Source of the DNA: a virus
IMG/VR virus record: IMGVR_UViG_3300043787_000002
Location: 1 to 21,146 of that record
Strand: one strand, 5' to 3'
Length of the DNA: 21,146 nucleotides
Position 1 is the first letter of the stretch; every line of letters begins with the position of its first letter. Positions 4,226-21,146 of this stretch are shown here, piece after piece. Made by a program: the position numbers and the translations under genes. Below the pieces are notes generated by a model. It made no database searches. It was not told where the DNA came from and worked only from the letters and a program-made list of their open reading frames with translations.

Positions 4226-5604
4226 CGCGCCGCCTCCAGCTCCTCGACGCGCTTCGTCAATTGCTGCACCGCGCCGATCAAGAGGCTGATCATGGCGTTG
4301 CGGTCGAAGTCCCACACCACGCCGAGATGATCGTCGTGGTCGTCTCCCTTGCGCACGCCCTCTGGGAAGATCTCGTGGATTTGTTGCGCGATCATGCCGA
4401 CCGGGATGACCGGCGCGTCTCTCGCCGCCCTTGCTTCCTTAAGCCTCCAAGGATCGCCCTCCGGGTACGACTTCCAGCGAAACTGCTTGAGCGGAAACTT
4501 GAGCACGGTCGAGAGGCAGTCGAACGTCGAGGGCGCGATCCCCTCTTTCATGCGCTCGTCGGAGGCGTTGGCGATTGCATAAGCCGCGCCGCCGTTGTCG
4601 ATCGAGACGCTAACGGTGCCTGCGATGATGGTGCTCCAGCCGAAGCCAATAAAGCTGGCGCTGCCGTAAGCCATGCCCCGATAGCTAAGGCCGTAATATT
4701 CGAGGAGGACGTTGCCTGAATAAAAATTGCTCGGCCCGGTCGTGTTAAAGTAGCCGCTTGCGTCAATTGAGATACTCCCGCCGCTGCTTTGCTGTTGCAG
4801 GATCATCTGGTTGGAGGATTGCAACCAGTAAAGAATGCCCGCCGTGTTGCCTGCGGGATCGAGAAACCAATAGTGGCAATTGTCCGCCGCAGTGGGGGCT
4901 TGGGTATAAAAGAGGCCCGCTGCCGAGGTGACGTAGCCGTTGAACGTCGCCTCGGCGGTCGCGCGATCGATGATCAGGTAATTGCCGAGATAGGTGCCGT
5001 CATCGGCGGCGGCTTGGATCTGGAAATCCTGTCCGACATTGCCGCCGGTTTCCGGCGTGCCGTCACCGAGGCCGAGCCACCAACGCGCTGTGGCGGCGGC
5101 GGGCGGCCCAGTATAACCGCCGATCCAGTTGCCGCTCTGATCAGAGCTGGCGATGTTGATTTGAACAAGACCTGTCGCTGGCGCTGTGACGTTGAGCGTC
5201 TCAGTCAGCGTGCCGCCGCTCTCCCATCCGGCGTCCGATCGAAGGTAAGCGGTGTTATCGGATGGCGCGTCGGCGATCAGCCCTTGCGGCCCAACTGGTC
5301 CCACCGGACCCTGCGGCCCGACTGGCCCGAGCGGCCCCTCCGGCCCCACCGGCCCTGCGGTCCCGAGGTTGAGCGTGACAACCCATTGGCCGTTGCCGGT
5401 TGAATCGACATACCAAATGAAGAGCTGTGCGGAGACCGTGTCCCACCACAGCGTTCCAGGGACTGGATTCAGGGGCGATGCATCACCGAAATAGATCGGC
5501 GCGGTGCCGCCCATCGTCCATTTGACGCCGTCAAAAGTCCAAGTGACGCCACCCGTCGTGAATTGCTGGCCGCTGACCGGATTAGCTGGAAAGTCGATAG
5601 CCAT
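4222..5604 (-). CDS. Collagen-like tail fibre with C-terminal S74 chaperone domain (460 aa)
   Basis: The start ATG 5604 shares one base with the upstream stop (TGATG). Residues 2-33 form the IDFPANPVSGQQFTTGGVTWTFDGVKW module shared with the collar fibre. Residues 47-80 hold a second module (PGTLWWDTVSAQLFIWY...QWVVTLN) also found in the 801-residue fibre. A short collagen-like Gly-X-Y run spans 83-108, followed by DAPSDNTAYLRSDAGWESGG. The middle looks like beta-rich shaft and receptor-binding sequence. The C-terminus is an S74 intramolecular chaperone with the expected SDERMK dyad (Ser348, Lys353) and a final helix, ISLLIGAVQQLTKRVEELEAA. S74 domains trimerise the fibre and then cut themselves off between the residue before the Ser and the Ser. 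Host specificity is probably set by this and the neighbouring fibres. Confidence 0.88.
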   Translation of the reverse strand: MAIDFPANPVSGQQFTTGGVTWTFDGVKWTMGGTAPIYFGDASPLNPVPGTLWWDTVSAQLFIWYVDSTGNGQWVVTLNLGTAGPVGPEGPLGPVGPQGPVGPVGPQGLIADAPSDNTAYLRSDAGWESGGTLTETLNVTAPATGLVQINIASSDQSGNWIGGYTGPPAAATARWWLGLGDGTPETGGNVGQDFQIQAAADDGTYLGNYLIIDRATAEATFNGYVTSAAGLFYTQAPTAADNCHYWFLDPAGNTAGILYWLQSSNQMILQQQSSGGSISIDASGYFNTTGPSNFYSGNVLLEYYGLSYRGMAYGSASFIGFGWSTIIAGTVSVSIDNGGAAYAIANASDERMKEGIAPSTFDCLSTVLKFPLKQFRWKSYPEGDPWRLKEARAARDAPVIPVGMIAQQIHEIFPEGVRKGDDHDDHLGVVWDFDRNAMISLLIGAVQQLTKRVEELEAAR

Positions 5605-8009
5605 CAGGCTCTAGCCTCCAGCGTCTCGATGCGCGCTTGCATCTCTTGAATCGTCTTGGTCAGCGCCGCGACGAGCGCCATCAGGTTCGGCGCCTGAAGC
5701 CGATCAGGATGATCCTTGCTCCCAGTGGCGGCGGTTTCGCCCAGCGTCTCTTGCAGCTCGTGGGCGATGAAGCCCCAGCGCTCTCGATCGTCGGCCTCGA
5801 TCAGCGGTATGTTGGTCGAGCTTCTCTGCGCTGGGGCTGGGAGCGGCTGAAACGAAAATTCCTTCTGCCGATAGCGGATCGGACGCAGCGCTTTAATGTG
5901 ATCCCAGGTCGAGGCGAGCGGCGCGATATCCTCCTTGATCCGATAGTCGCAAGCCGGATTGGCGAAGTCGCGCGAGGACCAGATTTGGTAGTAGTTCGCG
6001 CCAGCGGACCAACCGCCAAAATAGGGGTTGCCGTTGGCATTCCAGCCAAAATTGACGCCGTAATATCCGTCGATGAGAAAGGTGAAGAAGGCGTCGTTGC
6101 TGGCGGGGGCGTTAAACCAGAAGGTGCCGCCAGTGGTTGTGGCGATCGAACCACCGGCCCAGATCACCGACGAACCAACCCCATAGCTAGACGTATTAAT
6201 GCCAGTGGTGGCGGTCCAGCCGCCTGTGGTCAGATTGCCGCCGGGATCAAGCGTCATCACGCCAAACGATGGCACCGGGTCTCCGGCCGATGCATCTGCG
6301 CCGACGTTGAACTCAAGGCCGCCCACGTCAGTGAAAATGATGGCGCTCGTTCCGTCGCCGTAAGCGATGTTCGTGGGGCCTGAGGGGGTGACGTAGGCAT
6401 TGAAGCGGATCGCGTTGCCGCTGGGAATAGTCAGCTCTTCGATGAAGGCTTGATCGTAGAGCGGCGGGGGCGAAGTCGGGATGGTCACGGCGCCGATGCC
6501 CAGCGAGCCGGTGAGCAGCCCGCCGCTATGCCACCCGCTCGATGAGCGAAGGTAAGCCGCGCCGTCAGTCGGCGCCTCGGGGACCGGCCCCACCGGACCT
6601 ACCGGCCCCTGCGGACCTACCGGGCCAATTGGCCCCTGAATCCCCGGCGGTCCTGTCGCCCCCTGCGGACCCGGCCCGCCGGTATTGTTGACCGCGATCA
6701 CCCACTGCGCGGTGCCGCCAGAACCCTCGTCGTAGAACACGAAGAGCTGTGCGCTGATGGTGTCCCACCACAGCTGCCCTGCGAAGGGCGTAGCCGGGGC
6801 GGTCGCGCTGATCGTCACGCCGCCGCCAGTCGTCCATGACAACCGCCCAGTGCCATCGGTCGAGAGGACATCGCCGAAGACGCCGCCTCCAATTTGGATA
6901 TTCGCAGGACCGGGAAAGGTCGCGCCGATCGGGAAGGCGACGCCACCCGTGAAGGTGCCGCCCATAATCGGCATCAGGGTGCTATCGCGAGGATGGACGT
7001 GATCGGCGAGCGCGTAGGACAGATCGACGCCGATGTCCGCTGTGCCGTCCATGAGCGGCAGAGTGGTCGAGGCAGGCGGTGGCGGCGGCACCGGAGTCCA
7101 GCCGCCGTTTTCGCGGCAATAGAGGTTGCCGTCGCTCGGTGCGTCGACCTGAATCGGGACGCCGATCCAGCCCGCGTCGTACCGACCATAGAGGGTGGAA
7201 TCGGTTGGCGCTTCTTGGACCGGCCCTGGCGGACCCACCGGCCCAATTGGGCCAGGAGGCCCGATAGTGCCGTCGATGCCGTCATTCCCGGCCGGACCCT
7301 GCCCCCCTTGAGGACCAGCCGCGCCCGCTGGCCCCTGGATTCCCTGCGGCCCCTCCGGTCCGACCGTCCCTGGCGAGCCGGGAACGCCTTGCGGCCCTTG
7401 CTGCCCAGTCGGCCCCTCGACTCCCTGCGGGCCGGTTGGCCCTGGCGGCCCCACGATCTGGCCGCCGTCGACCCAGCCTGCCGGGTCCATCACGGTCGTC
7501 ACATAGACCCAGACGTGGCCGGTGGGCTCGAAGAGGAGCCCGTTGCCTTGGGTCGCTTGATAGGCGGAATCGCCGGGTTGATCCCAGTCGGCCGGGAACG
7601 CGCCGTCAGGCGGCAGAGCGGTGGGCGGATTGGTGCTGAACGAGCCGATCAGCGTGCCGACTTCGCCCGCCGGACCTTGCAGGCCTTGAGGCCCCTCGGG
7701 ACCTTGCAGCCCAGTCGGACCGGCGATGCCGGGGACGCCCTGCGGACCGGCCGGTCCGGTTGACCCTTGCAAGCCATCCAGGCCGTCCTGGCCGGGTGGC
7801 CCCTGGATTCCCTGCGGTCCCCCAGGCCCAGGAACCCCCTGAGGCCCTGGCGGTCCCGCCGGACCCGGCGGTCCAATTGGTCCAGGCCCTGCGGCTCCGG
7901 GCATCCATGCCGTCTCCATCGGATTGATGGCGGTCACCTGAACGACGTCGCCGAGGTTCGGCAGCGAGGTCGGGACGAATTGCGAGACGTCGAGCGATTG
8001 CGAGCCCAT
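5604..8009 (-). CDS. Collagen-like tail fibre with S74-like domain, catalytic Ser replaced by Cys (801 aa)
   Basis: The start ATG 8009 overlaps the upstream stop as TGATG. After a unique N-terminus ([22 protein letters not shown]), collagen-like Gly-X-Y runs cover about residues 41-116, 186-263 and 444-477. Between the first two is a roughly 66-residue module (119-184, LIGSF...[14 protein letters not shown]...GWVDGGQ) that also occurs twice in the 1121-residue fibre. Residues 266-305 hold two 'EAPTD..LY.R...GW' units and 329-343 a [12 protein letters not shown] segment. The S74-like C-terminus reads [13 protein letters not shown], with Cys687 where Ser is usual and Lys692 kept, then a GFIAHELQE motif and a closing coiled coil. 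A Cys may still act as nucleophile, or cleavage may be slow or lost. The role is a trimeric tail fibre. Confidence 0.88.
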
Positions 8010-8362
8010 CAGCCCACCTTCTCATAGGCGTCGCGCCAGCCTGTCTGGACGAGGCTGACTTCGCCTTGGGGAGTCCGATGCGAGTAGACGCACCAAGCGT
8101 GACCGATCGGCGCGCCGCCGAGGAATTTGAACTCGTGCCGACAATCCTTTTCGATCAGGACATGGAACGGACCTTCGCGCTCGAAATCGAACGCCACCGC
8201 GCCATTGGGCTCCCATTTGGTGACGTGCCAGTTGCCGCAGAAACAGATGGTCGTATGGTCGAAAGCGTGGATATGGCCGCCGACGACCTCGCCCCGCTTG
8301 AGGCCCATGCCGCCCTCGCCCATGGCGCGGATGAAGATCGAGCCGCTAATCCACTCGGTCAC
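8009..8362 (-). CDS. Small cupin-like protein between two fibre genes, function unknown
   Basis: GTG 8362 is chosen because AAGGAGG lies seven bases upstream and the codon overlaps the preceding fibre's TGA as GTGA. This gives 117 residues; a longer reading in this frame would lie inside the fibre gene. The protein is rich in His and beta-prone residues: [11 protein letters not shown] (29-39), [10 protein letters not shown] (42-51), [15 protein letters not shown] (64-78) and [10 protein letters not shown] (87-96). The GxHxHxxDH pattern followed by a second G...H...H segment is reminiscent of a single-domain cupin with a His metal site. I cannot confirm the fold. Its place between two fibre genes suggests a fibre assembly factor, a virion protein or a small metal-dependent enzyme acting on receptor sugars; all of these are inference. 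Confidence 0.72.
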
Positions 8363-11300
8363 AGCCCCGCCTCCTTGAGCCGCGCCTCCAGCTCCTTGAT
8401 CTTCGCGACTGCTAGCGCGAGCAAACCAGTGATGTCGTAGCTCTTGCCCTCTTCTGCATTGGACCGCACCAGATCGGGCGCGGCGCGCTCGACGTCCTGG
8501 GCGATGAATCCCCAGTTCAATCGGTGCGGGTCGCTGTGCGGCCCTTCGCTGACCCCATCGGGAGCGGCGAGCGGGTTCGCGACTTTGGGTGGCTTCCAGC
8601 GGAAACGCACCGGCTTCAATCGGTCGAACGCTTTCGCCGCCTCGCGCACGTCGACCGGGGCGATGTCCATCTTCAGACTGATGTCTGATGGCGCACTGAT
8701 GGTAGCGTAGACGGTGCCGTTGAACGTGGTTGTTGGCCCCACGTTGGTGTGCAGGAACCAGTTCACACCATAGCCGCCGTTGCCGTTGTAAAGCCACATC
8801 TGGCCCTGCGCGCCGCCATACCCCGTGTAGGAGTCATGCGAGGCGTAGACCCCAGCACAGAGCTGACCGTTGGCGTTGGTCGCTACGAGGACCGGGGTTG
8901 GGTTGACGTTTGCGTTCGTGTAGTCGATCCAGCGGTAGTAGTAGCCCCCTGACTGGTACAGATCGATGCGACCGCCCTGCATCGTCAGCTGGCCGGTCAT
9001 CGTGTCGCCGGACTTGCTGACCTTCGCCAGGATCGCGTTGTTGTCGACGTAAGCTTTCGTCGCAGCGTCTTGCGCGCCGCTCGGATTGCTCAGTCCGATG
9101 ATCCGGCCACCGTTCATCGAAATGGCGGCGCCGACGCCAACATCGATGCCGACGCCTGCACTCAGCAGGCCGGTGAGCTGGCCACCCGCCAGCGGCAGCT
9201 TGGTGTCGGCGTAGGCCTTGTTGACGGCGTCCTGCGCAACGACCGGCGTGCCGAGGCCGGTCAGAAGCTGGCCGTTGATGTTCAGGAAGCCGCCCATGAC
9301 GATCCCGCCATCGGCGTTCAGCTGGCCGGTCATCGTGTCGCCGGTCCGCTGAACCGCATCGTTGGCGAGCGGGGTTAGCGCGGCGATGTCAGCGGTGTTT
9401 TGGCCGACGTCAGCTTCCGCTTGGTTCAGCGCCGCTTGCACGGTCGAAGCGCCGAACGCCATCGGCGCCAGCCCGATGTTGGAAGCGGCGAGATCCGGCG
9501 TGCCGACTGGCAACAGATTCCATTGGTTCCCGTCCGACATCCACCAGTCGCCGGAGTTCGCGGGCACCTGGGTTTCGGGAGGCCCGACGCTCGGCGTGCC
9601 CGCCGTACTGACAATGACGTAGTGATTGTCGCCAGCGACCGAGGCGGCTGGCAGCTGCCCATCGGGGATGCCGGAAGCGGAGGTGAAATCCGTCAGCCCG
9701 GTCGAGGCGTCGAACGAGCCGATGTACTGGAGTGCGCCCGTGACGGACTGGTCGACATAGAGCTTGTTCGCCGCCTGCATGTCATCGAGCGGCGTTCGAT
9801 CCAGCATCACCGTGCCGGTGAGACTGATCACCGCGCCGCCAACGGTTCCAGGCGACGGATTGGTGATAACCAGCGGCTCGTCGAGATAGCCGTAAGTGTC
9901 GGGGTCGCTGCGGAACAGCATGAAGCTGTTCCCGGCTGTGGTCACGCCCCACATCGGGAAGCCGCCAACGTTCAGCCCGAACCCCGGCAGCTCCAGCGAG
10001 CCCGTCATCGTACTGCCGCGCAATTGAACGTAGCGCGCGTCGCTATCTGCTTCAGTGAACGCGACGCCGAGCGGGTTCGCGGCGCCGTCGCCGATCATCG
10101 TCGCGTCATGCGTGACGTTCGCGATCCCGAGCGGATTGGCTGAGCCGTCGCCTTGCAACGAAGCGTCGTGGGTGACGACGAGGCTGAAGGTCGTCACTGG
10201 CGGCAGAATGTCGACCGCGAGCACCGAGTCGAGCGGAACGGCTTCGGCGAAAGAGATGGTCGAAGACGGATAATCGACCGAATAGTCGCCTGTGTAGGAG
10301 GAGCCGCTCGGGGTCAGCTTCACGCCGTTCAGCCAGATGATCAGGTTTTCGGCGCCGGTGAGCGTGTAATCGTTGGCGAATAGGTCCGGGTCAGTGAGCG
10401 CAAAGTCGGTCTGGCCGAGGGCGCCCGCGAGGTAGAACAGCGAGACCGCCTGGATGGCGACCGGCCCCATCGGCCCGTCAAGACCGGGAATGCCCTGGAC
10501 GCCTTGCGCTCCAGTCGGTCCTGGCGGCCCCTCGACCTGTCCGAGATTGACCCAGCCGCTCGGATCGACCGCGAGGCCGACATAGACGTAAATATCGTTG
10601 CTGACCGTGTAGACGAGCCCCTGACCCGGTTGCATCTGGAGATCGGCGGGCGGGTTGCCGGGGCTGTCCCAGTCGGCGGGGATCGCGCCGTTAGGGGGCA
10701 GCGCCGAGGGATCTTGCACGTCGAACGAGCCGACGAGAACCGCTGTCTGTCCCGGCGGCCCTTGCAAGCCTTCCGCGCCCATCGGGCCTTGCACGCCCTG
10801 CGGCCCTGCGGGGCCGACTGGGCCGAGAGGACCGGCGCGGCCGGATGTCCCGCGCACGCCCTGCGGTCCTTGCGGCCCTGTGACGCCTGGAGGCCCTTGG
10901 GGACCGGGCGGCCCGCTACCAGCGCCCAAGTTCACCCAGGCGACGGTGTTCCACGCCGTGCTGATATAGCCCCAGATGTCGTTCGTGCGCGTGTCGATGA
11001 GGGCTTGGCCGGGATAGAACTGAATCGGCGACAGCGGGTTGTTCTGTCCGTCCCAGTTGGCCGGAATGTAGCCGTCAGTCGGCAGCGCGGTCGTCGGCTG
11101 GTTGGAGAAGCTGCCTAGGATGTTCTCGAACTGCACGGGCGGACCAGCGGGTCCCTGCGCGCCGCTCGGCCCGGTGAGCCCCTGTATCCCCTGCGGACCG
11201 GCAGGCCCGACCTCGCCCTGGCCGCCTTGCGCGCCGTTGGGACCGGGAGGCCCTGGGACGCCTTGCAGGATGGACGGATCGATCCAGCTCGGATCGGCGT

Positions 11301-11724
11301 AAGGGCCGTTGGTGGAGAAGATCTGTCCTGGGATGCCAGGATTCAGCCACGCAGGACTCGCGTCGGTCTCGCCGATGAGGATCTGCCCGGTCGTTCCAAG
11401 CGGCAGATCGGAGACCTGGGAGAGGCCGCCGAGCTGGATCGCGTAGGGGATGGCGAAGGGCTTGCCGGTCCCGCCCATCAGGACCGGCAGCGGAACCGGC
11501 GGCGCGCCGAAGCCAACGACCTGATTGAGCGGGAGCTTAACCGTGATCCCGCCCTGGACCATCGGTATCCATTCGGAGCCACCGGGCAGGTTGCCCTGCG
11601 GCAGCTGCGTGATCGAGGAGACGTTGACCGGGACTTGGCTCGGCGCCCATTCGGCAGGCCCCGGCACGCCGGGGATCGGCGACGACGGCTGGCTCGGATC
11701 AGGGAAACGGACGCGCTTGTTCAT
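8359..11724 (-). CDS. Large collagen-like tail fibre with C-terminal S74 chaperone domain (1121 aa)
   Basis: ATG 11724 follows the zinc-ribbon gene's stop by a few bases. This is the largest complete gene here. Residues 1-150 are a unique N-terminal region, probably the particle-attachment part, including [21 protein letters not shown]. Collagen-like Gly-X-Y runs lie at about 154-196, 271-327 and 399-421. They are separated by two copies of a 'GSF...ALP.(D/N)G.IPA.WD...PGQ.L...GWVNLG' module (about 201-267 and 329-396). The rest of the shaft has tandem '[15 protein letters not shown]' units and several 'MTGQL...A..KAYVD' fibre repeats. The C-terminus is an S74 chaperone: SDISLK (Ser1013, Lys1018), [26 protein letters not shown] and a closing helix, [19 protein letters not shown]. 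Predicted role: trimeric tail fibre, self-cleaved after folding. Confidence 0.9.
8370..8376 (-). promoter_or_regulatory. Strong Shine-Dalgarno site deciding the GTG start at 8362
   Basis: AAGGAGG on the minus strand lies seven bases before GTG 8362. It sits inside the last codons of the upstream fibre, so the cupin-like protein has its own strong ribosome binding site and does not rely on coupling alone. Confidence 0.85.
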
Positions 11725-12117: not shown

Positions 12118-13014
12118 TCACTTGCAGCAGGGGACGCAACCTTCCGGCCCCTCGGGATGAACGGGCGGCTCTGGCTCGGGCTCGGGCGGCGTGGTCTGGG
12201 TGGCGTTCCAATCCTTGAACACGGCCTGGAGCGCCGGATTAGTGGAGATCGCCGAGGTGGACTTCGGCTGTTGCCCATAGCTGTAGGCGAAGGACATCGG
12301 TGGGCTCGGCAGCAAAGTGTGCCACTTGTCCAGTAGCTTCTGCATCTGCGGGCCGCTCGGCACCACAAACACGTTGTCCCAGCCGCCGAACGCCTGATAG
12401 GTCGGGGCCATCTTCTCGCGCGGAATATGAGCGTCGAGCGCCGCCTTCACATAGCGGTCGATCATCTCGTATTCGCACTTGTCCGGCCCAGCGTTCGCCG
12501 TGCGGCACGGGTAGCCGCCGACGCCGTAGACATCGAGCATCCCCGGAATGCTGAAGTCCATGTAATCGGGCTTTGTAGTCGAGCCGATGTTGCCGAGCTT
12601 CACGAAGGTGGAAATGCCGGGGAAATTGGCGTGAACGTAGTCCGTCTCGGCCTTCAGATTGATCATCGGACACGCGGGTTTCGAGCCGACCTGACGACCG
12701 TAAGGCTCGTCCATCAGGTAGAAGCCCCAGAGCTTGGCGTTGCCCTTGAACTGATCGATGAAGGCGCGGAATTGCGGACTGTCGCCGCTGCAACCGCCAT
12801 TGCTCTCGCCAACATAAACTAAGCCCTTTACGCCTTCGGGCAGCAGATTGAGGATCGACAAGCTCGACACGTCAGCGAGGTTGAAGCCCAGGTTGCCAGG
12901 GGCATAGCCATTGTTCCAGTTGCTCCCCGAAGTCATCCGCCAGGGGATCAGATCAGCGGAGAGCGCGGGCGCCGAGACCGAGACGAACAGAGCAGCAGCG
13001 ATCAAGCGTTTCAT
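12118..13014 (-). CDS. Exported glycoside-hydrolase-like (TIM-barrel) protein
   Basis: The start ATG 13014 has GGAGG seven bases upstream. Residues 1-20 (MKRLIAAALFVSVSAPALSA) are a textbook Sec signal peptide with an ALSA cleavage site. The mature part shows strand-like segments ending in acidic residues, as in glycosidase barrels: VKGLVYVGE (62-70), KLWGFYLMDEP (94-104), FVKLG (137-141), LDVYGVGGYP (160-169), APTYQAFGG (203-211) and SFAYSYGQ (241-248). The 'DEP' glutamate (Glu103) is my candidate acid/base. The tail is a Pro/Glu-rich linker ending CVPCCK. Cysteines at 75, 115, 170, 180, 293, 296 and 297 suit an exported, disulfide-bonded protein. I cannot assign a family or substrate. A signal peptide is unusual in a virion gene block, so this may be a cargo gene or an exported depolymerase. 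Confidence 0.7.
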   Translation of the reverse strand: MKRLIAAALFVSVSAPALSADLIPWRMTSGSNWNNGYAPGNLGFNLADVSSLSILNLLPEGVKGLVYVGESNGGCSGDSPQFRAFIDQFKGNAKLWGFYLMDEPYGRQVGSKPACPMINLKAETDYVHANFPGISTFVKLGNIGSTTKPDYMDFSIPGMLDVYGVGGYPCRTANAGPDKCEYEMIDRYVKAALDAHIPREKMAPTYQAFGGWDNVFVVPSGPQMQKLLDKWHTLLPSPPMSFAYSYGQQPKSTSAISTNPALQAVFKDWNATQTTPPEPEPEPPVHPEGPEGCVPCCK

Positions 13015-13026
13015 CGACCATCCTCC

Positions 13027-13722
13027 TCAGTCGTAGTAGCTCTGCACCATTGGCAAGAGATAGATCGAGCCGTCTTCAGTGTCCTGCGTCGCCGCGTAAT
13101 CGTAGGCCTGCTTCGCCATCGCCGCGCGCGTCACTTCGAGATCCTGGGCGTAATGCACCGCGAGGCGCGCGGCCATGCCCGCACAGGCCGCATCGAGCCA
13201 GCGATAGGGGACGTCGAGCTGCATCGCGCCGCGCAGGCTCGCGTCCTGCTGCTGGCCGAAGCTCCAGACGTGACAGTGGTAGTTCTGGTTCGGCCAGGGC
13301 CAGAGCGTGATGCTCGGCGAGATCTGACGGTCGAACCAGAATGTCGTCGGCCTCCCCTGCTGCATCTTGTTCGGCTGCATCGTGTACTCTTGTCTCGTCA
13401 TCGGCGTGATGGTCAGCTCTTGCTCGTTCGGCGGATCGCCCGTGCCGATCGTGACGTTGAGGACCATGATCGAGGTCGAGGGGATGGAATAGGTCGCGAA
13501 ATCGGGGCCGATGTCGAACACCAGCTCGCTGACCTTCCAGAGGTTCGGCCCGCGATTCGACCACTCGACTTGCATCAGGTTGGCCTCCATCCAGGCCTGA
13601 TGCAGATGCTCGGCGAGGACCATCGGGCCGCGAATCCGGATGCGCGAAAGCGCATTGAGCGTCACCTCTCCGGTCGAGGGGAAGAACCCGAAGGTGCCGC
13701 TGGTATTGCTGGGCTCGGTCAT
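13027..13722 (-). CDS. Putative tail tubular A-like / tail completion protein
   Basis: This 231-residue protein starts at ATG 13722, overlapping the upstream stop as ATGA. It begins GEVTLNALSRIRIRGPMVLAEHLHQAWMEANLMQVEWSNRGPNLWKV. Later it has ITPMTRQEYTMQPNKMQQGRPTTFWFDRQ, a WPWPNQNYHCHVWSF strand, and a helical end with LDAACAGMAARLAVHYA and a final YYD. Such a helical bundle plus small beta domain, with 'R.eY...PNK..G.PT.fwfdR', is typical of short-tail proteins related to T7 gp11 or P22 gp4. Because a separate SU10-like adaptor exists at 2198-2998, this one may be a second ring component or a structural protein of another kind. The structural class is fairly safe; the exact role is not. 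Confidence 0.65.
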   Translation of the reverse strand: MTEPSNTSGTFGFFPSTGEVTLNALSRIRIRGPMVLAEHLHQAWMEANLMQVEWSNRGPNLWKVSELVFDIGPDFATYSIPSTSIMVLNVTIGTGDPPNEQELTITPMTRQEYTMQPNKMQQGRPTTFWFDRQISPSITLWPWPNQNYHCHVWSFGQQQDASLRGAMQLDVPYRWLDAACAGMAARLAVHYAQDLEVTRAAMAKQAYDYAATQDTEDGSIYLLPMVQSYYD

Positions 13723-14138
13723 TTCGGCATCGCCGCGTAGTTCGAGCCCTCGCGCGCCGACTCACCCATCAGCGGCGGCGCGAACGGCCCCTGCGAGATG
13801 TTGCTGTGGCTGTGCTCGCCGACTTGAAGGAACGTCGCCTTCACCATGGCGCCGCTTACCAGGGTGAGCCGGAACCACAGCGGCGTCGCCATGATCTGGA
13901 AACTGGCGTTCACGTTTCCCATCGCTACGCCGGGAGGCAGAAGCGAAATTTGCCATCGCATGTCCGCGACCGCCACCGGGCTCACGAGGTCGTTCGGATC
14001 ATCAAAGCTATGCTGGAGCGTGTACGTCGAGCCGCCAAAGGTGTGGACTTGGACGCCGAGGACCGCCGTCGCAAAATTGTCCATGTTCACCATCGCCTGT
14101 GACTGGCCTGGGAACACGGTGGCGGTCACCGCGCGCAT
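13719..14138 (-). CDS. Small putative virion protein, paralog of the upstream gene (139 aa)
   Basis: The gene begins at ATG 14138, one base after the upstream stop, and its own stop overlaps the next start. Residues 39-72 (YTLQHSFDDPNDLVSPVAVADMRW, then ISLLPPG) align closely with the upstream 116-residue protein, and the QHSFDDPNDL block is identical. The common part looks like a small beta-sandwich: V..FP.QS..MVNMD, LGVQVHTFG, ATPLWFRLTL. This copy has about 30 extra C-terminal residues (HSNISQGPFAPPLMG...). I recognise no family with a known function. Position between the head and tail modules suggests a small capsid or tail accessory protein. Confidence 0.75.
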   Translation of the reverse strand: MRAVTATVFPGQSQAMVNMDNFATAVLGVQVHTFGGSTYTLQHSFDDPNDLVSPVAVADMRWQISLLPPGVAMGNVNASFQIMATPLWFRLTLVSGAMVKATFLQVGEHSHSNISQGPFAPPLMGESAREGSNYAAMPK

Positions 14139-14139
14139 G

Positions 14140-14490
14140 TCATCCTTCCACGACGTTGTACTGCTGCACGACCATCCTCGCCGCTCCGACGCCGGAGTTG
14201 AGGAGGAGCCGCATCCACAGCGGAGCGGTCGCCATGGAGAACGTGACCCCCGCGACTGCGTTAATCGCTCCGGCCGGAATCAATGAACTGTCCCACCACA
14301 TGTCCGCGAAGGGGACCGGGTTGATGAGGTCGTTCGGATCATCGAAGGAATGCTGCACGGTGTATTCGACCGTGCCCGTCGTCGTGACCTGAATCCCGAG
14401 AGGCGCGTCAGCCCACTCGTCGAGGCGAACCATGTCGGACGGCGTGCCCGGAGCGGCGTTGGGACCTACGGTCCTCGTAATCGGGCGCAT
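14140..14490 (-). CDS. Small putative virion protein, tandem paralog (116 aa)
   Basis: ATG 14490 is preceded by AGGAG, which itself comes right after the T-tract of the intrinsic terminator at 14502-14529. Residues 43-74 (YTVQHSFDDPNDLINPVPFADMWW, then SSLIPAG) match the downstream paralog, as does APLWMRLLL near residues 89-97. The predicted content is mostly beta strand, with no catalytic motif. This is the first gene after the terminator, so its expression, and that of the tail genes below it, depends on read-through or on a promoter I could not identify. Confidence 0.75.
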   Translation of the reverse strand: MRPITRTVGPNAAPGTPSDMVRLDEWADAPLGIQVTTTGTVEYTVQHSFDDPNDLINPVPFADMWWDSSLIPAGAINAVAGVTFSMATAPLWMRLLLNSGVGAARMVVQQYNVVEG

Positions 14491-16224: not shown

Positions 16225-17139
16225 TTACTGCGTCGGGAACGAGCCCCAGATAGCTCTAAAGTCGAAGTACCCAAAAGAGTACCTCTCGTAACCTTTGACC
16301 AGCAAGTTATCTGAAGTAAAGTCCACCTGCATATCAAGTTCGAAGGCTACACGCTGCAAGTACAGCAAGCCTTCCTGATCCGTCATTACAAACCATGCGG
16401 TCGGCGATGTTAGATAGTCATGTACAAGATGACCATCAGGGATGCCGCCTGAAGTCTCAGGGATGGCGTTGACGTCGTTATCATTTGTTCCGGGGCGTAA
16501 AACGGTCCGGAGGAGCCGGATCGCTATTGGCTCAAGCGCGATCGGGACGACAAGCTTTCTTGCGCGGGCCTGCATACGGAGGCCTGCATTGTCTCGGAAC
16601 GAGCCGCGAATCGAGGCCTGCGCGTTGAGGAGCGAGGCCTCGTTGAGATCCATATCGATGGCGAAGCGGTTCGGAACGACGCCAGTATCGATTGGATGAT
16701 TCAAAGAACAGAGCGGCTGCTGATCCCCAAGAATGGTAGGATCGTAGACCGTCGCCATGTTTAATGGGTAGGCCCCATAGATTTCCTTGGTCTGATTGAA
16801 AGACTTCTGTAGTCCAAGGTTACTTGGTTGCCATTGCCTCTTGTACAAATTATCGTCGATCATCTTTCTGGTGAAAGCATAACCGAGGCCAATTTCTTTG
16901 TGGTACTGATTATAGACATAACGCTCGCCAGCTTGATTGTCGAACGTAGTCGGCCCGCCCTCGTTCTTCAGGGCTGCAAGCCCCAAATACCTCATCGATG
17001 CTGTGCGCTCGACGGACATATAGGACTTATCGACCTTATAGATCTTGGGATAGATCCGGTCGATGTCCTTATACTGTCCGGCCACCTTGCGGAGGCCGGG
17101 GAACAGCAGGTCATAAGCCTGGGCGACCGAGACGGCCAT
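16225..17139 (-). CDS. Major capsid protein (HK97-fold, Mu gpT-like)
   Basis: The start ATG 17139 has GAGGAGG eight bases upstream. The 304 residues match the Mu gpT-like major head subunit pattern from end to end. They include LFPGLRKVAGQYKDIDRIYP at the N-terminus, GLGYAFTRKMIDDNLYKRQ, the TKEIYGAYPLNMA segment, CSLNHPIDTG, MDLNEASLLNAQASIRGSFRDNAGLRM, a VVPIALEPIAIRLLRTVLRPGTNDNDVNAIPE region in three adjoining parts, and a C-terminal ERYSFGYFDFRAIWGS. About 300 residues is the usual length. The product forms the icosahedral shell, assembled on the scaffold gene product. By hand count GC over 16261-17100 is about 52%, well below its neighbours, and AGA, AGG, TTG and TCA codons appear, so the gene may have been exchanged from another phage. 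Confidence 0.93.
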   Translation of the reverse strand: MAVSVAQAYDLLFPGLRKVAGQYKDIDRIYPKIYKVDKSYMSVERTASMRYLGLAALKNEGGPTTFDNQAGERYVYNQYHKEIGLGYAFTRKMIDDNLYKRQWQPSNLGLQKSFNQTKEIYGAYPLNMATVYDPTILGDQQPLCSLNHPIDTGVVPNRFAIDMDLNEASLLNAQASIRGSFRDNAGLRMQARARKLVVPIALEPIAIRLLRTVLRPGTNDNDVNAIPETSGGIPDGHLVHDYLTSPTAWFVMTDQEGLLYLQRVAFELDMQVDFTSDNLLVKGYERYSFGYFDFRAIWGSFPTQ

Positions 17140-19489: not shown

Positions 19490-19957
19490 TCAGAACCATG
19501 CGTCCGGGTGATCGATTTTGCCTCGGATGTAGACGTCAGCGATGAATCGGACCTCGCGCGAGCCGATCATGCCCTTGAGGCCGTCCGAGGACCGGTAGAC
19601 CACCCAATCACCGGGCTCGACGTTCTGGTCGTAGAATTTGACGGGACCGTCATCGACGAAGGCGCGCGGCCCCTTCTTCAAGACCATGCCGACCTTGCCC
19701 TGGTAGCGATCCTCGTCGACCGCTTCCTCGGCGATCTCCAGGCCGCTGGCGGTGCGCGTCGCAGGCCGGATGTAGGTCGCGATGAGCACCTGTTGATTGA
19801 ATGGCTCGACCTTTTCGAGATCGTCGCCGCAAGTGTTCCAGATAACCTCGCGGGGGTCTTCAAGATGAAGCGTGACGATGCGATGATGCTGCGGCAAGTG
19901 GTCCTCTTCCTTGATCGTCTTCCTCGTTGTCGATTTGCTCGATCCATTCGAGGACAT
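19490..19957 (-). CDS. GroES-like co-chaperonin (Cpn10-type)
   Basis: The core from about residue 50 to 145 reads VEPFNQQVLIATYIRPATRTASGLEI, EDRYQGKVGMVLKKGPRAF and VEPGDWVVYRSSDG. This follows the GroES order of a first strand, a mobile loop (ATRTASGLEI in place of KSAGGIVL), a 'GxVxxVGxG' strand and a 'GDxVxxxxxxG' strand. GroES caps GroEL; T4 gp31 is a phage version needed for capsid folding. ATG 19957 gives 155 residues and a 98-base overlap with the upstream gene. TTG 19897, five bases after AAGGAAGAGG, would give 135 residues and a 38-base overlap; it may be the true start. Position just before scaffold and capsid genes fits a capsid-folding job, which is inferred. Confidence 0.8.
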   Translation of the reverse strand: MSSNGSSKSTTRKTIKEEDHLPQHHRIVTLHLEDPREVIWNTCGDDLEKVEPFNQQVLIATYIRPATRTASGLEIAEEAVDEDRYQGKVGMVLKKGPRAFVDDGPVKFYDQNVEPGDWVVYRSSDGLKGMIGSREVRFIADVYIRGKIDHPDAWF

Positions 19958-20105
19958 GGCCGAGCGCTTCCAGATATCCGGCGCGCTTTTTGTAGTCGGG
20001 GAAGTCAGCCGCCGCGCCGTTGATCAGCGGGCGCAGCATTTCCTTCTGCTTGGCCTCGATGCGCTCGGTCAGCTTCTTGGCGACGAAGATCGACATCGCG
20101 TCCAT
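19860..20105 (-). CDS. Small helical phage protein, function unknown
   Basis: The 81-residue product starts at ATG 20105, sharing one base with the upstream stop (TGATG). It is helical: SIFVAKKLTERIEAKQKEMLRPLINGAAADFPDYKKRAGYLEALGHVLEWIEQIDNEE, followed by a low-complexity tail. The 'L..G.A.DF..YK...GYLEAL..VL.WIE' pattern recalls small unannotated proteins found near portal genes in other phages. The last third overlaps the start of the GroES-like gene in another frame, and that C-terminal tail (GRGPLAAASSHRHASS) looks like read-through rather than a folded domain. No function can be assigned. Confidence 0.7.
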   Translation of the reverse strand: MDAMSIFVAKKLTERIEAKQKEMLRPLINGAAADFPDYKKRAGYLEALGHVLEWIEQIDNEEDDQGRGPLAAASSHRHASS

Positions 20106-20341
20106 CAGGGGCTGATCCTCGTCTCGCCGTCACCGAGGAAGTAACCGGGCCTCTCGGCGGGCTCCTCCATGACGGAGTGATAGAGCCCAATCCCGATCTC
20201 TTTCACGCCGCAGTCTTCGCTCTCGGTGAACATCGCGACGACCGTCTCGTTCGGCCGCGCGATGACGCCCGCCGCGACGAATTTCGGATTGTCGTCGCAG
20301 AGCGCCGCGAACTCACGGAATCGATCGCCCAGCTCGGTCAT
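20105..20341 (-). CDS. Small phage protein (78 aa), function unknown
   Basis: ATG 20341 overlaps the stop of the Acb2/Tad1-like gene as ATGA; longer readings in this frame lie inside that gene. The 78 residues read as a compact alpha/beta protein: LGDRFREFAALCDDNPKF, then VAAGVIARPNETVVAMFTE, then VKEIGIGLYHSVMEEP and a short tail. I recognise no family. It is translationally coupled to the immune-evasion candidate upstream, so a related counter-defence role is possible, but nothing in the sequence itself shows that. Confidence 0.7.
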   Translation of the reverse strand: MTELGDRFREFAALCDDNPKFVAAGVIARPNETVVAMFTESEDCGVKEIGIGLYHSVMEEPAERPGYFLGDGETRISP

Positions 20342-20637
20342 TTCGTGAGCCCTTTGACCGCCCACATTACGGCTTCCTCCACCTTCGTCTTGGCGAGCGA
20401 GGCTTCGCGCCCTTGCGGCACGCAAACCTCGATCGCGGCGAGGAACTCGACCCCGAGATCCTTGATGGCGACCATGTTTTTCTTCTCAGCATCGGAGAGC
20501 ACGCGGTACTGGTGGCGCACGTCGTTGTTGACGACCCGCTCGTCGCTCTCGCTGGCGACATTCGCGGTCGACAACGTCCTGCCCGCAGCCTCACCCGTCG
20601 CCCCGATCGGAACTCCCCGCACCTGTTCTGCGCTCAT
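20338..20637 (-). CDS. Acb2/Tad1-like hairpin protein, probable cyclic-nucleotide sponge (anti-CBASS or anti-Thoeris)
   Basis: The 99-residue protein starts at ATG 20637, overlapping the upstream stop as ATGA. After about 38 probably flexible residues it has NNDVRHQYRVLSDAEKKNMVAIKDLGVEFLAAIE, a short turn, and REASLAKTKVEEAVMWAVKGLT. This is a two-helix hairpin with the 'YR.L...E...M..IK..G' and 'A.TK.EEAVMWAVK.(I/L)T' signatures that I associate with the Acb2/Tad1 family. Acb2 forms hexamers that sequester the cyclic di- and trinucleotides used by CBASS; Tad1 sequesters Thoeris signals. As I recall, Acb2 needs Tyr11 and Lys26 for cyclic dinucleotides. Here Tyr44 and Lys59 have the same 15-residue spacing. 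The extra N-terminus is unusual compared with the roughly 90-residue family. The ligand cannot be predicted. Confidence 0.72.
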   Translation of the reverse strand: MSAEQVRGVPIGATGEAAGRTLSTANVASESDERVVNNDVRHQYRVLSDAEKKNMVAIKDLGVEFLAAIEVCVPQGREASLAKTKVEEAVMWAVKGLTK

Positions 20638-21146
20638 TCGGACAACATCACCTTCCCGTGGCCCTGGCGCTTGGTCTTCTCCATCCGGCCTCGGCCGGAG
20701 CCCGCGCCGAACTTCTCGGAGATCCGCCCGCCGTGTGCGCGCCCCATGCCTGGAGGCGGCATTCCAGGCGGCATGCCACCCGGAGGCGGCATGGGCGGCC
20801 TCGGCGGCGGGGGCGGCATGCCAGCGCCTGGAGGCATCCCCGGAGGCATGCCGCCCGGAGGCATGCCCTGCGGCGGCGGCGGAGGTGGCGGGGGCGGCAC
20901 CATCGGGTGTGGCATGATGGGGGGCGGCGGCGGCTGTTGCTGGCCCTTGTCGCCGCCCACGATGACGTTGACGACGGTCTTCCCTTTGGCGCCCTTCGCC
21001 TTGCCGCCGCGTGCGAGATTGGTTCGGCCGCCCTTGGCGCGCCCCAGGCCCGGTAGGCCAGGGAGCTGCCCGCCTGGAGGCGGCGCGAGCACGCCTGGGG
21101 GCGTTGTCTGCGGTGGAGGGCCGCCCAGGCCGCCGCCGAGCTGCTT
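20634..21146 (-). CDS. Pro/Gly/Met-rich protein, 5' end beyond window
   Basis: The frame is open from 21146 to the TGA at 20634, giving 170 residues without a required start; a GTG at 21092 is in frame, but upstream codons (KQLGGGLGGPPPQTTPPG) continue the same composition, so the true start is probably outside. The protein has a basic stretch (GRAKGGRTNLARGGKAKGAKGK), a hydrophobic VVNVIVGG strand, a long polyproline and MPPG-repeat region, and a basic end, AHGGRISEKFGAGSGRGRMEKTK. I recognise no family. It could be a disordered C-terminal tail of a larger structural protein such as the portal, or a separate small protein. The window does not decide between these. Confidence 0.65.
   Translation of the reverse strand, partial: KQLGGGLGGPPPQTTPPGVLAPPPGGQLPGLPGLGRAKGGRTNLARGGKAKGAKGKTVVNVIVGGDKGQQQPPPPPIMPHPMVPPPPPPPPPQGMPPGGMPPGMPPGAGMPPPPPRPPMPPPGGMPPGMPPPGMGRAHGGRISEKFGAGSGRGRMEKTKRQGHGKVMLSE
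20745..20935 (-). repeat. Low-complexity repeats encoding MPPG and polyproline
   Basis: Imperfect GC-rich repeats encode PPPPPPPPP, GGMPPGMPPG and PPMPPPGGMPPGMPPPG inside the Pro-rich protein. The repeat is in frame throughout. Such sequence is likely to be disordered and prone to slippage. Confidence 0.8.

Follow-up and report, generated by a model that had tools for sequence, protein, structure and literature searches.

We identified, in a head-gene operon of a virus, a small gene that most likely encodes a sponge of the Acb2 type, which would take up cyclic oligonucleotides of the CBASS class, with its ligand and oligomeric state predicted. The gene occupies a slot whose contents vary among phages with 95-100% identical head proteins: some carry a hairpin gene of the same type (type A), some a divergent hairpin gene (type B), and some nothing. 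The family is already known, and the gene itself adds one further likely member to the phage nucleotide sponges. The less expected result is the slot, which appears to be exchangeable, together with the apparently shuffled 5' module of the gene.

The window, meaning the whole 21,146-nucleotide stretch of DNA that was analyzed, contains the 99-codon open reading frame that an initial annotation had placed at 20338-20637. The frame is real and reads on the minus strand, which that annotation had left unstated, from an ATG start at 20637 to a TGA stop at 20338. The coupling that it had described on both sides of the gene can be read in the DNA as two ATGA overlaps, one at 20634-20637 between the stop of the upstream gene and the sponge start, and one at 20338-20341 between the sponge stop and the start of the next gene. 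Both motifs that had drawn attention to the product are present, YR.L...E...M..IK as Y44-R-V-L-S-D-A-E-K-K-N-M-V-A-I-K59 and A.TK.EEAVMWAVK as A82-K-T84-K-V-E-E-A-V-M-W-A-V-K95. The gene and its parts are located as follows.

20338..20637, minus strand: Acb2/Tad1-hairpin sponge gene, 99 aa (open reading frame; PF24729; phrog_1454)
20536..20637, minus strand: codons 1-34, N-terminal extension and candidate recombining 5' module (pLDDT, DNA identity, counterpart in L173)
20344..20508, minus strand: hairpin domain, residues 44-98 (Pfam span; AlphaFold2 helices; alignment to PaP2 Acb2 and T4 Vs.4)
20506-20508, minus strand: Tyr44 codon
20461-20463, minus strand: Lys59 codon
20386-20388, minus strand: Thr84 codon

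The proposed membership in the Acb2/Tad1 family was borne out by profile search, in which residues 44-98 matched Pfam PF24729 (Acb2_Tad1_hairpin) with an E-value of 2.7e-18 and 66.4 bits, far above the curated cut-off of 27. The protein also matches PHROG 1454, a family of unassigned function (E=1e-9), and an NCBIfam profile search returned no match. A scan of viral contigs recovered 74 relatives. Across 46 diverse aligned homologs, Y44, E78, A82, E88, A89, V90, M91 and W92 are invariant and N38, R41, H42, K59, T84 and K85 occur in at least 90%; a Lys stands 15 residues after the pocket aromatic in 43/43 homologs with a scorable aromatic. The profile match, the relatives, the conserved residues and this spacing together mean that the motifs are not a chance occurrence. 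Purifying selection acts on the hairpin (window versus L094, dN 0.022 and dS 0.48). Related loci in bacterial genomes come almost entirely from Alphaproteobacteria, with one from Solimonas, and gp37 of Sinorhizobium phage Aussie, whose gene lies between those for the head-to-tail adaptor and the stopper, is 66% identical to the sponge over 67 residues. One relative, L078 (Dunaliella viridis virus SI2), carries an algal host label, yet its genome is that of a member of the Caudoviricetes and includes a window-type hairpin gene; the label may be wrong.

The two-helix hairpin fold that had been anticipated was recovered in an AlphaFold2 monomer prediction fed the 46-sequence alignment, with helices at residues 49-72 and 77-98 and a block mean pLDDT of 97-98, 94 at the end. 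When this model was searched against the PDB with Foldseek, the top seven matches were all Acb2 chains (probability 0.91-0.99). Despite the high probability, the E-values are poor (about 0.4-0.9, best 0.38), which counts against an Acb2-type assignment; they are weak because the hairpin is short and simple. Top matches in BFVD were mostly named as Acb2/Tad1 hairpin proteins, so that in fold as well as in sequence family the product resembles the phage 'Acb2/Tad1 hairpin domain-containing proteins' of PHROG 1454. The first 25 residues are modeled at pLDDT below 50 with no strand, and where Acb2 has a short helix ahead of the hairpin, three residues (29-31) are modeled as helical with low confidence. 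The model thus lacks the N-terminal antiparallel beta-sheet described for Tad1, and the N-terminal extension is probably disordered.

The residues that would contact ligand are those of Acb2. The references for this comparison were PaP2 p26 (PDB 8h2j), T4 Vs.4 (PDB 7uq2) and Acb2 homolog 43 (PDB 9ptq) for Acb2, and PDB 7uav, 8kbe, 8kbg and 8kbh for Tad1; in the PDB, the 46-sequence profile matched Acb2 homolog 43, T4 Vs.4, five Tad1 sequences and PaP2 Acb2. Profile alignment to PaP2 Acb2, with its sequence taken from the phage genome, pairs Y44 with Y11 and K59 with K26, and across this pocket region a 20-letter stretch is paired with QYRVLSDAEKKNMVAIKDLG. The 15-residue spacing of Tyr44 and Lys59, which had been likened to that of Acb2 Tyr11 and Lys26, is therefore shared with Acb2 along with the hairpin domain, and the first helix follows the PaP2 pattern YR.LS.EE...M...K.LG..F. 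Y44 also aligns with Y9 of the T4 Vs.4 crystal chain 7uq2. Allowing for a one-residue offset, this would be Y8 of T4 Acb2, and the Y8A variant of that protein is binding-deficient (PMC12657230). In the second helix, which is T4-like, T84 would correspond to T68 of T4 Acb2, counted along the profile alignment with the residue read as T68; a T68M change lowers affinity (PMC12657230).

The same hairpin also occurs in Tad1, and the sponge could instead be a Tad1-like anti-Thoeris protein with a gcADPR-type molecule as its main ligand. PF24729 spans both families, the profile scores the five Tad1 sequences about equal to Acb2, and SRENACALTHVEEALMW in the second helix of Tad1 is similar to GREASLAKTKVEEAVMW of the sponge, following a common pattern SRE..A.T.VEEA.MW. 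The sponge departs from Acb2 in carrying RE..A.TKVEEAVMW here, and this C-terminal motif, in its general form RE..A.T.VEEA.MW, is equally close to Tad1 and Acb2, leaving the ligand class unsettled and weighing against a firm Acb2-type assignment. Two features speak against Tad1: the N-terminal beta-sheet of that family (PMC12043709) is not predicted in the sponge, and an Asp in the Tad1 sequences aligns with the position of Lys59. We consider the Tad1-type assignment, raised by its similar second helix and lowered on these two counts, unlikely. The initial annotation had proposed a counter to CBASS or Thoeris; since the product has the Tyr/Lys pair of Acb2 and no predicted Tad1 sheet, the alternatives narrow towards CBASS-type ligands, which sequence and model make the likelier, and Thoeris is less favored.

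The region ahead of the hairpin had been described as an unusual extension of roughly 38 residues, and this stands for part of it. The pocket aromatic is residue 44 in the sponge and residue 11 in PaP2 Acb2, a difference of 33 residues, and it lies mostly at 20-25 in the subfamily, so roughly 20 residues are special to the sponge. About half of the extension (VASESDER..NN..RH) is common to the subfamily: the NN..RH motif directly precedes the pocket Tyr in 40/46 homologs, and neither it nor the longer conserved SDER..NN..RH is a feature of PaP2 Acb2 in the alignment. This conserved motif could alter ligand choice, and cyclic trinucleotides are also bound by Acb2 (PMC12043709), so one could imagine that the product takes up a different messenger, for instance a type III CRISPR cyclic oligoadenylate or an undescribed signal. 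Nothing in our analysis indicates such a ligand and the pocket residues follow Acb2, making this quite improbable.

The half of the extension not shared with the subfamily behaves, judging from sequence comparison, as a shuffled and recombining 5' module. Its first ~22 residues were seen only in the window, in L002/L003 and L004, and, ahead of a different hairpin, in L173, a difference from the PHROG 1454 proteins (the contigs L002/L003 also appear under the names L103/L101, and L004 as L094). The first 101 nt of the gene (codons 1-34) are DNA-identical between the window and L101/L002, as are 21 nt upstream of it in L101, and the 100 nt upstream are 90% identical; the remainder of the gene differs, codons 34-99 having dS 0.54 and dN 0.19 against L101. 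The L101 hairpin instead resembles that of L091 (dN 0.03), which is without the extension. In L173, a type-B hairpin is preceded by a related extension, MTAGQVQGATTGATGEAAGKTLAT, with 67% identity across 24 residues. Identical 5' ends on differing hairpins, a hairpin shared with an extension-less relative, and this fusion are what suggest a module that recombines. The L173 gene itself (L173:3917-4213) encodes a 99-aa chimera of window-like extension and type-B hairpin and could be an assembly error. We also considered the extension as a functional specificity module, an idea so far unsupported: the L101 sequence is identical, and the comparison with L094 (first 18 codons, dN 0.08 and dS 0.37) is too short for a selection test.

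The surroundings of the gene had been described as a structural operon. The genes that bear on this description, all on the same strand as the sponge, are listed here.

20634..21146, minus strand: 3' part of an upstream Pro/Gly-rich gene, truncated at the window end, with a stop that overlaps the sponge start; left slot border in relatives
20105..20341, minus strand: downstream gene (MTELGDRFREF...), its ATG overlapping the sponge stop; right slot border, itself variable
19860..20105, minus strand: 81-aa gene (MDAMSIFVAKKL...), the right-hand anchor of the slot, conserved at 70-100% identity throughout the close lineage
19490..19957, minus strand: GroES-like co-chaperonin gene, 0.4 kb downstream of the sponge (Cpn10 E=4.2e-6, above cut-off; phrog_3188 E=1.5e-8)
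16225..17139, minus strand: probable major head protein, 3.2 kb downstream of the sponge (phrog_4523 'major head and protease protein' 8.3e-5; phrog_371 'major head protein' 1.5e-4)

The operon contains the GroES-like and head-protein-like genes; the description does not extend to the immediate neighbors, which are uncharacterized: neither the upstream Pro/Gly-rich gene nor the downstream gene at 20105..20341 has a Pfam or PHROG match. The head-protein-like product also resembles Mu gpT, in a match (E=0.006) that falls short of the Pfam cut-off. The GroES-like gene sits in the head operon and is kept across the lineage; as listed, its frame (19490-19957) overlaps the preceding gene by 98 nt, so the true start may be further inside the frame. 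The second gene upstream of the sponge encodes, in relatives, a cell-wall hydrolase domain. In the wider subfamily, surveyed with a simple ORF caller and with PHROG counts by family rather than by locus, the sponge gene often has terminase, portal, head protease or further head genes in its vicinity. Because head genes share its strand and its subfamily is often found near head genes, co-expression with capsid genes is likely. In PaP2, by contrast, p26 comes after the structural genes and is read from the other strand.

Other genes of the window were recorded along the way. Two separate SU10 adaptor-like proteins (PF24175) are encoded at 13027-13722 and 2198-2998, and the adjoining genes at 14140-14490 and 13719-14138 match the same places in relatives and look like tandem paralogs. 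Two long genes contain collagen-like repeats, one at 5604-8009 and one at 8359-11724, the product of the latter matching Pfam Collagen and bearing a Peptidase_S74 chaperone domain at its C terminus. The virion gene cluster also includes, at 12118-13014, a gene for a 298-aa protein that begins like a signal peptide (MKRLIAAALFVSVSAPALSA) and matched neither Pfam nor PHROG.

To compare the locus across the lineage, we fetched 80 relatives by their head protein as a lineage marker and defined the slot as what lies between the Pro/Gly-rich gene on one side and the conserved 81-aa gene on the other. The window-type hairpin fills the slot in L091, L094, L095, L100, L101, L103, L107 and L108, and the type-B hairpin (M..FGEKAVGLxFNPSGD...SIAITEAQxAQMWxVKAxTW) fills it in L096, L098, L099, L104, L110, L111 and L118, including one phage, L098, with a 99% identical head protein. 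L105 (head protein 97%) lacks the hairpin and goes straight on to the next gene, L116 and L117 (head protein 93%) lack both the hairpin and the next gene, and in L119 an unrelated 199-aa ORF occupies the slot. That ORF (L119:4278-4877) has Cys motifs and by eye resembles HNH/AP2-type mobile-gene proteins, with no significant Pfam match. L129/L130 carry a window-type gene elsewhere in the same operon. Among 33 parent contigs scanned for PF24729, 17 had one such gene and 16 none; no contig had more than one.

Type B belongs to the same family by its Pfam score and motif rather than by structure. All five type-B proteins scanned were above the PF24729 cut-off (29-40 bits), and hhalign aligned types A and B confidently over the second helix only (probability 94%, 25 columns). 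The type-B model has a short N-terminal helix and two long helices at pLDDT 96, the topology described for Acb2 (PMC10419184); its PDB fold search was weak, with T4 Vs.4 first at a probability of only 0.25 and E=1.4.

Kept flanks and changing cargo are the behavior of an accessory gene and argue against an essential structural role. By this comparison, the slot appears to behave as an exchangeable cassette, as expected for a counter-defense gene. The same data bear on an alternative in which the product serves in head assembly or as a small structural component, having taken on the hairpin fold and lost nucleotide binding. Its place on the same strand as head genes, and the many relatives that encode it close to head genes such as those for terminase, portal or head protease, would fit such a protein. 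A structural role is nonetheless very unlikely: the gene is missing from L105, L116 and L117, whose head proteins are 93-97% identical, is replaced by a divergent hairpin in L096, L098 and L104, and changes operon position in L129/L130, and its conserved residues are those of the ligand site. We also noted a junction on a 9-kb contig known as both L102 and L012 (positions 1-400), where window-lineage downstream genes are joined to a sponge gene; the start of that gene (MPTEQY...) and the upstream reading frame resemble those of L005, L015 and L018, and the contig is either a recombinant phage or an assembly chimera.

How an Acb2-type sponge would act from this position can be outlined. Its two antiparallel helices would assemble as a homohexamer like Acb2, in which Tyr44 and Lys59, with Thr84 of the second helix, would line pockets for cyclic oligonucleotides. 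The sponge would hold the cyclic oligonucleotides made by CBASS-like enzymes of the host away from their effectors without degrading them. Being in a late head operon, it is probably made alongside the capsid protein. This position would be slow against an early-acting defense, which counts against an Acb2-type sponge, and may suit a defense genetically linked to the capsid gene: CBASS escape has been linked to capsid-gene mutations (PMC10419184) and a Thoeris sensor to the head protein (PMC12043709), from which we infer that production with the capsid is plausible timing. Recombination would swap hairpin subfamilies at the slot and shuffle the 5' end coding for the disordered extension.

We tentatively suggest, as a possibility, that the head operon holds a dedicated sponge slot, at which recombination trades divergent hairpins and, separately, reshuffles a disordered module at the N terminus. 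Phages with near-identical capsids would then differ in the messengers they absorb, with expression tied to capsid synthesis in a way that may match the timing of the trigger. In the literature searched, which was covered in part, we found no description of sponges being swapped at one fixed slot. The slot may prove more useful than the gene. Phages with 95-100% identical head proteins that carry differing hairpins or none come near to a natural isogenic series, which would allow a direct test of ligand-range differences between hairpin subfamilies. A sponge helps against CBASS yet triggers Panoptes (PMC12657218, PMC12657230), and the same series would allow testing whether this dilemma drives hairpin swapping and loss.
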